From Flaviaestuariibacter sp. (GTDB lineage: Bacteria > Bacteroidota > Bacteroidia > Chitinophagales > Chitinophagaceae), in assembly GCA_025963645.1 (NCBI GenBank), contig JAOQAI010000003.1, positions 1 through 64,000 on the forward strand: 64,000 bases of DNA, in the 5' to 3' direction. The notes under the pieces were generated by a model, which was not told the DNA's origin, did no database searches, and saw only the letters and a list, made by a program, of their open reading frames with translations. Position numbers and translations under genes: made by a program. Shown in pieces: positions 1-32,320 of this stretch (its first letter is position 1; the number at the start of each line of letters is the position of its first letter).

Positions 1-156
1 GTGTTTCATTGGTTAGCGATTTAGATTTTTCTAAAAATTGTGTTAGGTGTTAGCCAGACGAATGGTGTTTGTTTCATCCAGCCGCAAAGAGTAAATCCAA
101 CGAAATGCCAAAAATGAAAAAGAGAGATTTTTCGCAATGAAGTTATAGAAGAGTTT

Positions 157-197
157 AAAAGCATACAACCCGCTACAGGAGCGGGTTGTATGCTTTT
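157..197. terminator. strong bidirectional hairpin
   Basis: Perfect inverted repeat of 18 bases (arms 157-174 and 180-197) with a five-base loop. Both flanks carry A/T runs, so it can stop transcription from either side. It would insulate whatever lies left of the window from the ribosomal operon. The first 156 bases hold no gene that I can support. Confidence 0.75.
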
Positions 198-218
198 ACA
201 AAAAAAGTGAAATAAAAA

Positions 219-247
219 AAAGACCCCAACTTCAAATTGGGGTCTTT
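219..247 (-). terminator. rho-independent terminator of rpsF-rpsR-rplI
   Basis: An 11-base stem (219-229 with 237-247) around a seven-base loop, followed on the minus strand by a run of T. It lies 20 bases after the rplI stop codon, so it closes the ribosomal operon. Confidence 0.85.
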
Positions 248-267
248 CGATAAAAAAGTGTAGAATA

Positions 268-714
268 TTATTCTGCGATCACCTCAAAATCAACATCGGC
301 AGTTTTGCCGTTGCCGAAATCAATTGTGGCTTTGTACGATCCTAATTCTTTTACATCGTCAGCGATCGAAATTCTCTTACGGTCAATATCGTAACCTTTC
401 TGATCGCGAATTGCACGGCTGATTTGTAAAGAAGTAACGCTACCGAAGATCTTGCCGCTGGTACCCGTTTTAGCACCAACAGTTACAGGACCTTCCTGCA
501 GCTTAGCGATAACGCTGGCAACCTGTGCCAACATTGCATCTTCTTTCTTCTTCGCTACTTTTTGGCGCTCTTCCATCTGCTTGCGGTTAGAAGCATTTGC
601 TTCTACTGCCAGCTTTTGCGGAATTAAGAAGTTACGGGCATAGCCGTTCTTTACTTTCACCAGTTCGTTCTTGCCGCCCAGGTTATCTACGTCTTGAATT
701 AAAATAATGTCCAT
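268..714 (-). CDS. rplI: 50S ribosomal protein bL9
   Basis: bL9 binds 23S rRNA near the L1 stalk of the large subunit and influences reading-frame maintenance. The 148-residue product has the expected length and the typical N-terminal domain (start MDIILI, then the conserved NLG and GYARNFLIP motifs), a long charged connecting helix (about residues 40-80) and a C-terminal domain with the KIFGSVT motif. It is the last gene of rpsF-rpsR-rplI on the minus strand, 124 bases after rpsR, and a terminator follows. No Shine-Dalgarno lies before the ATG, as is normal in Bacteroidota and unlike its neighbour rpsR. Confidence 0.97.
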   Translation of the reverse strand: MDIILIQDVDNLGGKNELVKVKNGYARNFLIPQKLAVEANASNRKQMEERQKVAKKKEDAMLAQVASVIAKLQEGPVTVGAKTGTSGKIFGSVTSLQISRAIRDQKGYDIDRKRISIADDVKELGSYKATIDFGNGKTADVDFEVIAE

Positions 715-838
715 TGTTTGTTTTTTAGTCCCAAGAGCCCAGCTTTGTAGCTGTCTGACGCCATAGCGCCATTAGGGAGTGGTTACTAAGAAGTAAATGA
801 TGGCAGCTAATTTATTCACTACCCACCATTCACCTTGT

Positions 839-1105
839 CTATTTCAGAAGATCCGTTACATAAGGCAACAAGGACATCTGGCGTGCTTTCTTTATGGCAT
901 CGCTCACTTTACGCTGGTACTTCAGGGAGTTACCGGTAATGCGGCGAGGCAACATTTTACCTTGCTCGTTCAGGAACTTTTTCAGGAACTCTACATCTTT
1001 ATAATCAATGTAGCGGATACCATACTTTTTAAAACGGCAAAATTTCTTTGGACGCTTTTCCTGTTTGATCGCTGTCAGGTACTTGATCTCATTTGCTCTA
1101 GCCAT
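839..1105 (-). CDS. rpsR: 30S ribosomal protein bS18
   Basis: bS18 pairs with bS6 on the platform of the small subunit, close to the 3' end of 16S rRNA. The 88-residue product has the family core (KKFCRFKK near residue 20, then DYKD, the [10 protein letters not shown] motif and the basic [12 protein letters not shown] helix). Its start overlaps the end of rpsF by eight bases. The outstanding feature is a near-perfect Shine-Dalgarno just before the ATG, while rpsF and rplI have none. In Bacteroidota, bS21, bS18 and bS6 sequester the anti-Shine-Dalgarno of 16S rRNA, and strong Shine-Dalgarno sequences before the bS21 or bS18 genes have been proposed to autoregulate their synthesis. Confidence 0.97.
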
Positions 1106-1463
1106 TAACCACCTCCTTTACTTTTTCGTTGCCGGTTGGCAAGCCGTTTCTCTTTCTGTGATTGTACTCGACAGCAAATTTGTCGAGCTTGGTGACCATG
1201 TGGCGAAGCACACTTTCGTCACGCAGAAGCTGGATCTTCAGCTTCTCATTGAAGTCGGATGGCGCAATAAATTCAGAAACCCAGTACAAGCCTGTGGTTT
1301 TCTTCTGAATAGGATACGCCAGTGATTTCAGTCCCCATGCATTCTCCGCTACCATCTCGCCACCGTTGTCGGTAACCAGCGTAGCAAATTTGCGTTGAGC
1401 GGCTTTAAATTCTTCGTCGCTCAGAACGGGGGTAAAAATCACCATCAATTCGTAATTGTTCAT
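1098..1463 (-). CDS. rpsF: 30S ribosomal protein bS6
   Basis: bS6 forms a heterodimer with bS18 on the small-subunit platform. The 121-residue product begins [10 protein letters not shown], the classic bS6 start, and carries the NGG, WG.K.LAYPI and GLYW motifs with the [11 protein letters not shown] segment near residue 85. It is the first gene of the operon and overlaps rpsR by eight bases. No single-stranded-DNA-binding protein gene sits between rpsF and rpsR, in contrast to many Firmicutes. A TAnnTTTG promoter element lies 40 bases before the start. Confidence 0.97.
1110..1119 (-). promoter_or_regulatory. strong Shine-Dalgarno before rpsR
   Basis: On the minus strand the bases read AAAGGAGGTG, a ten-base complement of the usual 16S rRNA 3' tail. 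The GGAGG core ends six bases before the rpsR ATG. The site lies inside the last codons of rpsF. The other genes whose starts were inspected have nothing like it, so this is probably a regulatory site rather than a routine ribosome binding site. Confidence 0.85.
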
Positions 1464-1502
1464 TACCCTGTGTTTTTTGTTAAAAAATTAAATTTCGGAG
1501 CG

Positions 1503-1510
1503 CAAAGGTA
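1503..1510 (-). promoter_or_regulatory. -7 element of the ribosomal operon promoter
   Basis: On the minus strand this reads TACCTTTG, matching the Bacteroidetes TAnnTTTG element. Transcription would begin near 1497, giving rpsF a leader of about 34 bases. No clear TTTG element is visible 19-21 bases farther upstream. Confidence 0.55.
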
Positions 1511-1597
1511 GGATTTAGAATTCAGAATGGAGGAATGGAGAATGGAGAATTTTCGGATGCTAGTGTTAAAAAAGGCTCAAGACGCAAGTGGCTTCCA

Positions 1598-1629
1598 TTA
1601 AAAAGGCGACCCTATGGGCCGCCTTTTAA
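1598..1629 (-). terminator. terminator after the secreted nuclease gene
   Basis: An interrupted hairpin: arms AAAAGGCG (601-608 of the second kilobase) and CGCCTTTT (1620-1627), with an inner CCC/GGG stem and a TAT loop. It lies 20 bases past the stop of the minus-strand gene that ends at 1649. Confidence 0.7.
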
Positions 1630-1648
1630 TTATAGATAGCTATTAAGA

Positions 1649-4600
1649 TTAACGCTTAATAAACTGTTGAACAGTGAAATTACCGTTGTTTACAATCTTA
1701 AGCATGTAGCTACCCGCAGGTAAGCCGTTGATTCCAATGGCTTCAACCAACTTATTAGCTGTTACTGATTTAGCTGCAGTTTGTAAAACGATCACACCTT
1801 TTGCATCAATCACCTGGTAGCTTACTTTGCCCGCTTTTGGCAGGAAGGTAAACTTCAGGTTATTGCTGGTCGGGTTCGGCTGTATCACAAAAGCTACGCT
1901 TGCCGGGTCCACCGATGGTACGGCGGTAATAGCAGTTGTAAAGAAGACAAAAGTGGTGGATCCGCTAAAGCCTGCATACGCATTTCCGGAAAGGTCTTTA
2001 AATGCGGTATTCTGGATCTCTACAAAATATTGTGTAGAATTAACTAAGCCAGGGATCAGGAATACAGCATTTGAACCATTGATAATAGCTGAAGTAGCTG
2101 GAACAGTGGCTGCTATAGAGCCGTCAATCATACGCTTTATCAGCAGGTTGCCTGTTCCGGCAGCAATTGCTTCCGAGAAGGTGAAGCTCAATGGAGTTGG
2201 ATTGATAGGAACGCCTACCTGGTTATTTGGCGGTGCAAAAGTTACCAGTGTAGGAGCGGTATTATCCAATGTAGTGAACTTCCATGTGCCAGAGCCGCTA
2301 AAGCCGGCGAAGAAGTTGTTCGCGGTGTCTTTATAAGCCGTAGCCGGCACTTCCACATAGTATTGTGTCTGGCCCGCTAAACCGGTCACCGGGATAGAAA
2401 CCACGTTATTGGCAATAGTAGTAGCTGAAACAGCCACCGTTGCCGCAACCGTATTGTCGCTTACTTTTTTTACCAGGATATTACCTGTACCTGCCACCAC
2501 CCGCTCAGAGAAGGTCATTTGCAGGGTTGGCGTTACTGAAACGTTTATGGCGTTATTTGCTGGGTTTGTGCTAACCAGTGTTGGCGCGGTTAGATCGGCG
2601 GTAGTGAAGGCCCAGGTAGCACCGGCGATGCCTGCAAAGCTATTGCCTGCGATGTCGGTTATTGCCGTAGCGGGCACTTCCACATAGTAAGCGGTAGCCG
2701 ATTGTAAGCCTGTTACTGACCATGACAGTTGTGAGCCGTTTATAGTAGCAGCCGATACAGCCGTAGTAGCCACAACCGAGTTATCCGATGCTTTCTTCAC
2801 CACCAGGTTGCCGGTGCCGGCAGCGATGGATTCGGAGAAGGTAATACTAAGCGTAGGCGTGAGCGATACGCCGGTAGAACCATTTGCCGGACTCAAAGTA
2901 GTTACTGTTGGCGCTGTAAGATCAAGCACTGAGTAACGGGTCATTACAGGGTAATGATCGGAGGTGGTGTTTGCATAATCCGCAATATTCGCCAAAGCTG
3001 CGATGTCGTTATAGATCGTAACGGAAAGTGGCACATACTTGCTGCCCATTTCGTTGGAAACTACTACGTGGTCAATCACATCCGGGAAGCCTGTAGTAGA
3101 AGCCAAACCAGCATTGCTTAAGAAAAGCGTCAGTGATTTGTAATGATTAGCGTCTGTTGAATCAACAACGATGGGTTGCCAGGACGAAACTGTGTCAACC
3201 CCGGTAGTAGGCGCAATGGTACGGTCTAAGTCGTCATTGAAATCTCCAAGGATAACAATATTGGCGTTCGCAAAATGCGTATCCAGTGTATCTTTTAATT
3301 CCTGCACACCCGCTTTCCGACGATTGTAAGCATCGATCTGTTCTGCTGTATTGCCAGTATTGGCTTTGGCATGAACGACGATAAAGTTGATATTGGAAGT
3401 CTGACCATTCTTCGTCACATTGGCATTCACCAGGTAAGGGAAACGACCACTGGACCAGTTGCTTTCCGCTGACGCACTGCCTCTCAATAACGGACGTGCT
3501 GTAACGTTAGAGAACATGGAGGTTTTGTATACAAAAGCCAGTTTTTGATCGGTGTTGCAGCTACCTCCGCTGGAGCAGAAGTCACTGCCGATCACATAAG
3601 AGTAGCCTCCATTTAATGAGCTGACCAGGTTACCAAAACGAGTGGTGTTTACAATTTCCGCCACACCATAAGCATCCGCACTCATATAATCCATTACCTT
3701 CTTTGCGTTGGCTTGTGCCAGGTCATCGTCTGTTGGACCTTGGCCACTGGAGGTGCTGCCAAACCATTCAATGTTCCAGTTGGCGATATTGAGCGTGGTA
3801 GCTTGCGTATAAGAGTTCCCTTTTGCAAGTACCTGCGAGTTGCTTACGCCAGTGCCTGAAAAAACGATATTGCCGGAATACACAGTGTTAGCCGCTGTAG
3901 GCTTGAACCGAACAGACACTGTATTAAAACCAGTACCTTCTGCAGCCGTATAAGAGATGGACGTGCTGAACGTTGTACCGTCTTTAGATAGCTCATAGCC
4001 GGCAGGCGCTGTCAGTGTAAGGTTAGATGTAAGATTAGCGCCGTTAAAAGTAAAAGTTTTGGTAGCTGATGTAGCCCCGGCAAGCACTTCACGGAAATCC
4101 AGCAAGCGACCGGTTACTACCAGTTGTGGGAGCGGCATCACGTTGCTGTTATAAAACCCGATATCATCAATCGTCCAGCGGGCGGCATTTGTAGTATTAG
4201 ATGTATAAACCCATGCTACATGCACATTCGCTGTTTTATAAGCGGATAAGTTAATACTGTCGGATAGGCTCCATACATCAGAATTGGCTGCTGGAAATTC
4301 ACCATTAAGCGTAGTCCAGGTAGCCAAGGTTGGGTCGCCGGAACCGGCATAATTAGTAGATACTTTTAATTGCAGATCCGGACCTGCAAAAGCTCCGCGG
4401 CTCGAGAAATTGAGCAAAGGAATATTGGTGCCCGTGAGGTCAAATTTTGGTGAAATAAGCCAGTCCTCGTTGTTTTGCGCACCGCTTGCAAAACCGTTCA
4501 TCTGCATGGCAGAATCCGTAGAGGGGTCGGTGGTGTAGGTGCGTCCGAATTTAGTGCAGGACCAAACCTGGACGCCTGTGACGCTATAGGTTTTAAAGCC

Positions 4601-30170: not shown

Positions 30171-31256
30171 TTAATTGGTTGCGGTAGTTGTTTGGTTTAT
30201 AAAATTTTTATCAACGGCCTTGCTCCAGATCAGCGGCAGTACCACGCAAAAGTTCTTTTCATCTTCCAAAATATGAAAACCGCCTTGACCTATGAGCTCA
30301 TATTTCTGCTTGATATTGGTCAATCCGATCTTGCTGGAAAAACGGTTGATAGTGCGGCGCTGCAGGTTGTTGTTTACAACCAGTTTATTCCCGGCTGTAG
30401 TAAAAATATCAATGACCAGGGGCTTGCTTTTGGAAAGCACGTTGTGTTTGACCGCATTTTCTATTAACAGTTGAAGGGTGAGGGTAGGCACGAGGTATTG
30501 CTCGTATTTGGAATCTATCTCCACCCTAACCTGCACGGCGCTGCCATGCCTGGTTTGAAGGAGTTTGTAGTATGATTTGATGAAGCGTATCTCCGTTTCG
30601 AGTGTGCTCAAGCCATCTTCATTGTTTCGAAGCAGGTAACGATACACTTTGCTTAGCTCGTTTAAAAAGACTTCCGCCTGCTTGCGATCTTCTGAGATCA
30701 GCGACGACAAAGTATTGAAACAATTAAAAAGAAAATGAGGGTTTACCTGGCTTTTAAGCGTGTCAAATTCTTGTTGCAGGGTTAATTGCGAGAGCTTCTC
30801 TTTTTCTGCCTTTCGATCTTTTAATTGCTTGAACGTATAGTCTGCTTCCCACAAGGTTGTTGCCACCATCGTTAGCGCAATAGCCAGCAGCAAGGATGCC
30901 TGCAGCTGTTCCGGCTCCAGCACATAGCCTAAGAAATGAGTGACATCGTAAACAAGAAAGAGGGTAGTGAATGTTAAGCACGTGAGAAACAAATGTGCCA
31001 CTGCCAAGATGCTCAACCGCAGCCGCGTTTGCCGGATGAGCGGTAGTTTGTAGCGTAGCCAATGCATGACGGCAATGTGCAGGTACCATGAAATAAATCC
31101 TTGCAGGAAAACCAGGGGAACTGAGTAGATCCAAACATCCACATCGGTAAACATCCTTCCTTTGAACAGCAAATTGTTCAGGAGAATGCTAAGAAAAGGC
31201 ATCATTAAAAAAAAAGAAAGCCACTCTACTTTACTTGGTCTCGCCCAACTTTTCAT
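30171..31256 (-). CDS. LytS-type sensor histidine kinase (second of pair)
   Basis: A 361-residue inner-membrane kinase with four predicted helices in residues ~12-135, a coiled coil (~140-170) and a His_kinase-type core: phospho-acceptor His174 in NPHFLFN, the N-box LLIENAVKHN (~265) and the G2-like IGLTNIKQKY (~325). The set is intact by the standard of Bacteroidota LytS kinases. It overlaps the upstream kinase gene by four bases (ATGA) and precedes the LytTR regulator by nine. Signal unknown; the membrane part has no large external domain. Confidence 0.92.
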   Translation of the reverse strand: MKSWARPSKVEWLSFFLMMPFLSILLNNLLFKGRMFTDVDVWIYSVPLVFLQGFISWYLHIAVMHWLRYKLPLIRQTRLRLSILAVAHLFLTCLTFTTLFLVYDVTHFLGYVLEPEQLQASLLLAIALTMVATTLWEADYTFKQLKDRKAEKEKLSQLTLQQEFDTLKSQVNPHFLFNCFNTLSSLISEDRKQAEVFLNELSKVYRYLLRNNEDGLSTLETEIRFIKSYYKLLQTRHGSAVQVRVEIDSKYEQYLVPTLTLQLLIENAVKHNVLSKSKPLVIDIFTTAGNKLVVNNNLQRRTINRFSSKIGLTNIKQKYELIGQGGFHILEDEKNFCVVLPLIWSKAVDKNFINQTTTATN

Positions 31257-32320
31257 AAGCTTACCACCTCCTCTTTCTTTATCAGGGGTAAGTAAATGAT
31301 TCGCTCCGTTTCGCTGGTTTCAATGGTAAGTCCCTTTAGTGAAAGCAGCCGGTACTTGTTACTGATATTTTCTAAACCCGCATCTTTTCCGGCGCTTGTG
31401 TTAAGCTTGGTTAAAATGGAGTTAGTAACCGTTAAGCTACGTGCCGATGATTTTATCTCTATTTGAAGTGGTTCTTTCTTGCTGATGGCGTTTTGCGTAA
31501 TAATATTCTCTATTAGCATCTGTAGCGTCAGCGGTGGAAGCATATATTCTTTCGCAGTGCTGCCAACAGTGGTTTTTACATGAAAGGCATCGCCGTAGCG
31601 GGCTTTTAGCAGATAGGTGTAGGAGTTAATAAAGTTCAATTCGGTTTCTAAGGGAACAAGATATTCTTCATTATTGCGCAACAGGTAGCGGTACACTTTG
31701 CTCATTTCATTTAAGAAGGTTTCTGCTTCATCGGTATCTTCCTGAATGAGGCTGGAAAGCGAATTAAGACTATTGAATAAAAAGTGGGGGTTCATTTGGC
31801 TTTTTAACCCCAGCACCTGGCTTTTCATGTATTCCTTTTGCAGCTTTTCGGTTTGTTGCGATGCCATGCGGTACTGCTCAAACCGAGAAACACCTTCCAT
31901 CAGGAAGGTCAGGAAAACATTGATGACGATCATGCAAGCCAACCCCTTTCCAAAGGCGGAATCATTGAACCGGTATTCAAAAAAAGTAAAAAAATCATAC
32001 AACCGAAAGAGGATTGATATGGTCAGAAAAGAAAGGAAGGCATATAAAGCTATGGAGGCGCCAAGCCGTACGATATTTTGTTCTTCCGCAGGTAGCCGGT
32101 TGCGCAGCACTACTGCAATACTGCTGCAGAAGGTAAAAAAACCGGCTAAAAAAACAAACGTAATGATGCTTGCTGTGATCAATATTTTAGGTTCAGAAAA
32201 ATAACGGCCGTTGAATATAAAAAGGTTCAGAATGACAGTAAGCGGTAGCATACTGACAAGCAAGATGACAGCATCTTGTTCCGTAAAACGAAGGATATGT
32301 CTTGATTTTAAAAAAGGCAT
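31253..32320 (-). CDS. LytS-type sensor histidine kinase (first of pair)
   Basis: A 355-residue paralogue of the next kinase, with four predicted membrane helices (~17-140), a coiled coil and the kinase core: His179 in NPHFLFN and the FLNEMSKVYRYLLRNNEE block, almost identical in the paralogue. The N-box reads LLIENIITQN instead of LLIENAVKHN, losing the usual Lys-His, so ATP binding may be weaker. It begins the kinase-kinase-regulator operon. The 275 bases upstream hold no gene. Confidence 0.9.
   Translation of the reverse strand: MPFLKSRHILRFTEQDAVILLVSMLPLTVILNLFIFNGRYFSEPKILITASIITFVFLAGFFTFCSSIAVVLRNRLPAEEQNIVRLGASIALYAFLSFLTISILFRLYDFFTFFEYRFNDSAFGKGLACMIVINVFLTFLMEGVSRFEQYRMASQQTEKLQKEYMKSQVLGLKSQMNPHFLFNSLNSLSSLIQEDTDEAETFLNEMSKVYRYLLRNNEEYLVPLETELNFINSYTYLLKARYGDAFHVKTTVGSTAKEYMLPPLTLQMLIENIITQNAISKKEPLQIEIKSSARSLTVTNSILTKLNTSAGKDAGLENISNKYRLLSLKGLTIETSETERIIYLPLIKKEEVVSL

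Follow-up and report, generated by a model that had tools for sequence, protein, structure and literature searches.

Why should the gene for ribosomal protein bS18 carry a strong Shine-Dalgarno site in a lineage that otherwise ignores such sequences, and does the site belong to bS18 alone? The question is raised by the rpsF-rpsR junction in a 64,000-nucleotide stretch of Flaviaestuariibacter sp. DNA, hereafter the window. On the minus strand, rpsF (1098..1463; ribosomal protein bS6, 121 aa; PF01250, E 5.6e-26) runs into rpsR (839..1105; ribosomal protein bS18, 88 aa; PF01084, E 1.5e-25), so that, as originally predicted, the bS6 gene lies upstream of the bS18 gene in one operon, and rplI (268..714, minus strand; ribosomal protein bL9, 148 aa; PF01281 and PF03948) lies downstream. 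The rpsR start codon, ATG at 1103-1105, is located inside rpsF, whose stop codon TAG occupies 1098-1100; the two genes share an 8-base overlap, ATGGCTAG. The rpsR product is 99% identical to its counterpart in a Flavisolibacter MAG, and its best solved chains are 9i5v_I and 7jil_w. The last codons of rpsF (...AAG GAG GTG GTT AAT GGC TAG) contain the site AAAGGAGGTG at 1110..1119 on the minus strand, where a ten-base complement to the 16S rRNA tail had been predicted before rpsR and inside the end of rpsF. The start region of rpsR reads GTAAAGGAGGTGGTTA-ATG, with six bases between GGAGG and the ATG.

No 16S rRNA gene was found in the assembly (2.57 Mb in 21 contigs, 63% complete), and the tail was taken from 12 related genomes, 11 of the same family and one of another family of the order. 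It reads GGAAUACCUCCUUUUU / GGCTGGAATACCTCCTTTTTAGAG and was identical in 12 of the 13 genomes whose 16S 3' end could be read. Against this common tail the rpsR site forms nine Watson-Crick pairs and one G.U pair, with an energy of -18.1 kcal/mol. All ten positions of the predicted complement pair with the relatives' tail, one of them as G.U. Energies throughout are ungapped stacking sums on the common tail of the relatives, with no initiation term; the tail used for rpsR and rpsU genome by genome was two bases longer than that used for the 80 loci, the 389 open reading frames (ORFs) and the S10-spc genes described below, and for the tiny RNA gene it was extended by GGA at the 5' side. The two neighbours of rpsR, rpsF and rplI, have no comparable site (-5.3 and -7.7 kcal/mol, respectively), as had been claimed. 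In one genome from a distant family of Chitinophagales (G037) the 16S tail is changed to GGATCATCTCC, and neither rpsU nor rpsR of that genome has a site when scored on the common tail rather than on its own.

A lone match this strong could be luck. The site is, however, conserved: of the 80 best rpsR loci in other genomes, out of 462 confirmed stretches, 70 show pairing at -9 kcal/mol or better and 16 at -13 kcal/mol or better. One strain is represented twice in this set, and most titles name Chitinophagaceae or its genera, some giving only Bacteroidetes, Sphingobacteriales or bacterium. Within the genus, own genome included, 18 of 18 rpsR genes are at -13 kcal/mol or better. The codons of rpsF also respond to the site. 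At the 77 of 80 loci with a readable rpsF end, Glu at the site is encoded 73 times by GAG and 4 times by GAA, compared with 193 GAG and 141 GAA in the rest of rpsF (Fisher 1.7e-11; the counts come from related genomes and not from independent events, with two Glu codons at a few loci and none at a few others). Where Glu begins an EK dipeptide in the final 12 codons of rpsF, the choice is the opposite, with 68 GAA and one GAG. Valine preceding the site Glu is always encoded by GTG (43 of 43), a codon that serves 48 of 298 valines elsewhere in rpsF.

These counts bear on the possibility that the C-terminal protein sequence of bS6 produces the match by accident. Short E-A, E-G or E-V motifs are common at the end of bS6, which makes G-rich codons possible there, and one of 389 mock windows contained a match as strong. 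An accident of this kind accounts neither for the extreme codon choice nor for the residue before the site Glu, where any of V, A, Q, E, M, I and L may stand while G is kept as the last codon base in 64 of 70 cases, and we consider it improbable in the extreme. Because of the conservation (70 of 80 loci) and the codon test together, chance is very unlikely, and we conclude that the rpsR site is a genuine Shine-Dalgarno sequence, a nucleotide signal selected within the coding sequence of rpsF.

We infer that the site is read by 30S subunits with a free 16S tail. Such particles would be those in which the pocket of bS21, bS18 and bS6 is incomplete; rpsR initiation would be raised on them, and ribosomes ending rpsF would be delivered to the rpsR start, thereby helping initiation. 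The output of bS18 would then go up when pocket proteins are short and down when the pocket is filled. Autoregulation through bS18 is plausible, and we judge the complete reading, in which free-tail subunits aided by rpsF-terminating ribosomes would close a feedback loop on bS18, to have about even prospects of being correct. The pocket tyrosine Y54 is present in the bS21 of this genome (ungapped alignment to 7jil_z, with Y at 54 in both).

Autoregulation of bS21 and bS18 has already been proposed in the literature, by Jha et al. 2021 as cited in McNutt et al. 2023 (PMC9976891), which anticipates the present interpretation in outline. The sites before rpsR in other Bacteroidia attributed to Jha et al. 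2021 (via PMC9976891 and PMC8710568) resemble the present one in being strong, in their position before rpsR and in the autoregulation proposed for them. In Flavobacterium johnsoniae, initiation on rpsU, which has an extended site, is faster with ribosomes that lack bS21, an effect that requires extended pairing (McNutt et al. 2023, PMC9976891). The likeness to that system is considerable: a gene for a pocket protein, a strong site, a Shine-Dalgarno-blind lineage and an energy of the same order. It differs in that the F. johnsoniae rpsU site forms up to 13 pairs and was tested by experiment (PMC9976891), whereas here the gene is rpsR, the pairs are nine plus one and the case is made from sequence; moreover, the present site lies within an operon and within the upstream coding sequence. 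McNutt et al. 2023 (PMC9976891) describe rpsR pairing as weaker, at -7 to -14, which together with the extended pairing required at rpsU speaks against our reading; the site in the window is stronger than this range, although the comparison is approximate, our values being stacking sums. In the same paper, rpsR sites are described as frequent in Bacteroidales, Cytophagales and Sphingobacteriales, with Chitinophagales named only for rpsU; our results differ from this in that rpsR sites are common in Chitinophagaceae.

A different relation between the two genes is suggested by their overlap. Where rpsF and rpsR overlap, 7 of 7 loci reach -14 kcal/mol or better, compared with 3 of the 70 loci at which the two genes do not overlap (p 5e-8, uncorrected for kinship). 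Since site strength is tied to the overlap in this way, simple translational coupling stays a serious rival: the site would hold or re-bind ribosomes finishing rpsF at the rpsR start, with no feedback from the pocket, and would be a general feature of internal ribosomal cistrons. Two further observations agree with coupling, namely that the genes of the S10-spc region at -13 kcal/mol or better, rplE and rpsH, are internal cistrons, and that the second strong site of the window, before a histidine kinase gene, also lies at a gene overlap. On the other hand, most relatives keep the rpsR site without an rpsF/rpsR overlap, and the site is longer still at rpsU, a gene that runs divergently from the one upstream. 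Were tails generally buried, moreover, re-initiating ribosomes too would need a free tail. We regard plain coupling as somewhat less probable than the reading by free-tail subunits, but as a substantial possibility.

Control of the same operon by the same proteins is also known from Escherichia coli, in which a protein-binding RNA structure before rpsF, the rpsF_leader, provides feedback by bS6:bS18 (Babina et al. 2015, PMC4647458). A corresponding leader in the present operon would make the rpsR site secondary. Such a structure was not found here: an Rfam search of window positions 1-2400 with E values up to 5 returned 11 matches, none over its cut-off and none to the rpsF leader (the searched set may not include rpsF_leader), and no notable structure was seen in a stretch of 63 bases where rpsF begins (z +1.5). 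We therefore consider control by a leader improbable, though less so than an accident of the bS6 sequence. The rpsF/rpsR junction in the window does fold well (z -3.0). Concealment of the rpsR start by local RNA structure was rejected as a candidate, start-codon accessibility being 0.38, against 0.37 in upstream-shuffled controls (81 loci).

Returning to the reading by free-tail subunits, the original prediction went further and held the strong site to be reserved for bS18. This did not hold, as rpsU has a longer site, and rplE, rpsH, a small heat-shock gene (Hsp20) and a histidine kinase gene have sites as well. The rpsU gene of the assembly carries TAAAAGGGGGTATAACCGTATG, with 12 pairs including one G.U (-19.7 kcal/mol), a longer pairing than in any other ribosomal gene examined. 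In the same genus 16 of 16 rpsU genes have 10 to 12 pairs, each with GGTAT, the counterpart of the family-specific AUACC in the tail. At rpsR, the lineage-specific tail bases are rarely followed: GGAGGTA occurs in 8 and GGAGGTAT in 3 of the 80 loci (best 80 of 462). That the rpsR site rarely tracks these bases whereas rpsU does argues against a feedback specific to bS18, as do the sites of rplE and rpsH, the products of which lie outside the pocket, and those of Hsp20 and the histidine kinase. Among 31 Chitinophagales genomes, own genome included, sites at -10 kcal/mol or better were found at both rpsU and rpsR in 17, at rpsU only in 4, at rpsR only in 4 and at neither in 6, so the loop is dispensable. 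The genome-wise reading of rpsR used 33 of 38 genomes (G024, G034, G025, G027 and G028 were left out), and rpsU was read in all 35 genomes with a match.

In and around the S10-spc region of the assembly (G000:C20:62001-80000) 25 genes were scored, four of which reach -10 kcal/mol. Judged by their protein sequences, these four are rplE (-16.7), rpsH (-13.0), rplX (-11.4) and rpsC (-10.2); the first three have similar values in the same-genus genome G003 and rpsC has none such there. McNutt et al. 2023 (PMC9976891) list rplE, rplX and rplI among the site-bearing genes of certain Bacteroidia. The sites of rplE and rplX in the assembly agree with this list, whereas our rpsH site is off it and the listed rplI has no strong site here. 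The pattern of Flavobacteriales, with one such gene per genome, is likewise not matched, as rpsR is accompanied by rpsU, rplE, rpsH, Hsp20, the kinase and a tiny RNA gene.

Does the genome then use Shine-Dalgarno sequences generally? In a sample of 389 ORFs, drawn from the window and a further 400 kb of the assembly (2.57 Mb in total), the Shine-Dalgarno window reached -9, -11, -13 and -17 kcal/mol in 78, 16, 6 and 2 cases, respectively, against 79, 14, 4 and 1 in the mock set, to which the strongest value overall (-21.3) also belongs. The rpsR gene (displaced by an overlapping plus-strand ORF) and the short rpsU fall outside this list. General Shine-Dalgarno use in the genome was rejected on these near-identical counts, and we conclude that strong cases are few and that some of these may not be real. 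A scan of start codons had been proposed as a means of seeing whether rpsR and rpsU are outliers; few ORFs do reach -17 kcal/mol (two, against one mock), but those two, Hsp20 and a histidine kinase gene in the window, are as strong. The latter gene (30171-31256, minus strand; PF06580) is the second of a tandem pair, its start overlapping the stop of the upstream kinase gene (which ends at 31253), and is preceded by AAAGAGGAGGTG at 31265..31276 on the minus strand, with 12 pairs of which two are G.U (-19.95 kcal/mol). It contradicts the claim, when applied to the whole window, that the other genes examined have no such complement, although this site may be a chance match.

GGAGG-N3-9-ATG occurs 349 times in the assembly, a modest excess over the 258 of reversed controls, and the longer AAGGAGGT-N2-8-ATG occurs 120 times against 96 in five genomes and 15 times against 8 in our own. 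The rpsR site sequence itself was found at 9 places in the assembly, against 10 for the reversed control. One of the nine (L008) lies inside a 237-aa ORF, and another (L009) precedes a 63-aa ORF without Pfam match (L009:1305-1496, minus strand; G000:C21), which has AAAAAGGAGGTG before its ATG and overlaps the end of the upstream ORF.

The Hsp20 gene of the assembly (G000:C20:24004-24441, plus strand) has AAAAAGGAGGT before its start. Together with the 12 next-best loci (52-75% identity) it has a site of -10.9 kcal/mol or better in every case, 12 of the 13 being at -13 or better, and the remaining 17 of 30 Hsp20 loci reach -13 in 5 cases; these counts were made without a mock control and with preference for the strongest-site start among nearby candidates, which favours strong values. 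For rpsU initiation, McNutt et al. (PMC9976891) report activation energies of 42.9 kcal/mol in the wild type and 18.3 kcal/mol without the C-terminus of bS21. By our own arithmetic, these energies correspond to a rise of about 15-fold and 3-fold, respectively, from 30 to 42 °C. In the literature searched, Hsp20, Shine-Dalgarno sequences and Bacteroidetes were brought together by a single paper, on phage bS21. The difference between the two energies leads to the idea that heat could switch a site-bearing gene on at the ribosome: heat may free the 16S tail, as the published activation energies suggest, and thereby turn on Hsp20 translation, the ribosome acting as a thermometer.

The search for AAGGAGGT-N2-8-ATG in five genomes yielded one recurrent element, a structured RNA gene (G000:C8:29835-29954, corresponding to L336:1501-1620, plus strand) that combines a complement to the 16S tail, a tiny reading frame, a covarying hairpin and a terminator, and that exceeds no Rfam cut-off. 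A covariance model of five copies gave matches in 8 of 198 genomes of Chitinophagales, and a second model, built from 11 copies, recognised the element in 98 of 394 genomes of Chitinophagaceae, representing 34 of 101 genera, mostly as a single copy. The resulting alignment comprises copies from 93 of the 98 genomes, from G008 and two from G157, a member of another family (98 matches, 97 distinct rows). Its hairpins covary: 88.7% of cells are paired, and 23 of 31 pairs show changes on both sides (98 matches). The covariation score is 0.365, against 0.133 in shuffled and at most 0.067 in slid controls, for an alignment fitted to the same structure. AAAAGGAGGTAT precedes the ATG in 97 of the 98 matches, the other being partial, and takes the form AAAAGGAGGTATTC in 95 of 97. 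The helix with the 16S tail has 14-15 pairs (13 in one case) and lies directly before the frame. A TAnnTTTA-like box occurs at a fixed distance upstream of most copies (its T-A and T-T positions agree in 72-86%), and terminator-like hairpins lie downstream in the copies shown.

The tiny frame is 15 codons long in 87 copies, 14 in 9 and 13 in one. Five tiny RNAs of the same genus have a different middle, and in two that were aligned a lost and a gained base restore the frame. A peptide-coding signal was rejected, as diversity is equal at codon positions 1, 2 and 3 (0.21, 0.22 and 0.22 in 82 sequences) while the frame length is kept; the peptide sequence itself may thus not be under selection. 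The neighbours of the gene differ between genera, and a role as transcription attenuator was rejected, any neighbour family occurring at no more than 6 of 35 loci. Phage origin of the 17-base start was likewise rejected, with three viral contigs in unrelated contexts. An Rfam search of five members with E values up to 1 gave three matches, all under the cut-offs and two over the 3' end, and the literature searched, in which one query was too broad to weigh much, contained no description. The gene thus seems not to have been described previously. It may act as a sensor or sponge for free-tail 30S subunits, setting how much free-tail 30S remains for rpsU, rpsR and hsp20.

A speculative extension is a free-tail regulon of the Chitinophagaceae that would comprise rpsU, rpsR and Hsp20, with the tiny RNA as sensor or sponge and with translation of Hsp20 turned on by a heat-freed tail; we consider it rather unlikely in this complete form. 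For the rpsR site, the original interpretation proved half right: the site pairs with the tail of the lineage, is selected at the nucleotide level and precedes the gene of a pocket protein, and the exclusivity to bS18 has to be given up. For Chitinophagaceae, our results extend the published rpsU/rpsR pattern by evidence of selection at the level of codons, and correct the view that the site belongs to bS18 alone. Specialists may be drawn above all to the larger set of genes whose starts are complementary to the tail, in a lineage otherwise ignoring Shine-Dalgarno sequences. If this set is confirmed, specialised ribosomes without pocket proteins would serve their own supply, heat-shock translation and a dedicated RNA, and the purpose of Shine-Dalgarno sequences in Shine-Dalgarno-blind bacteria would become directly testable.
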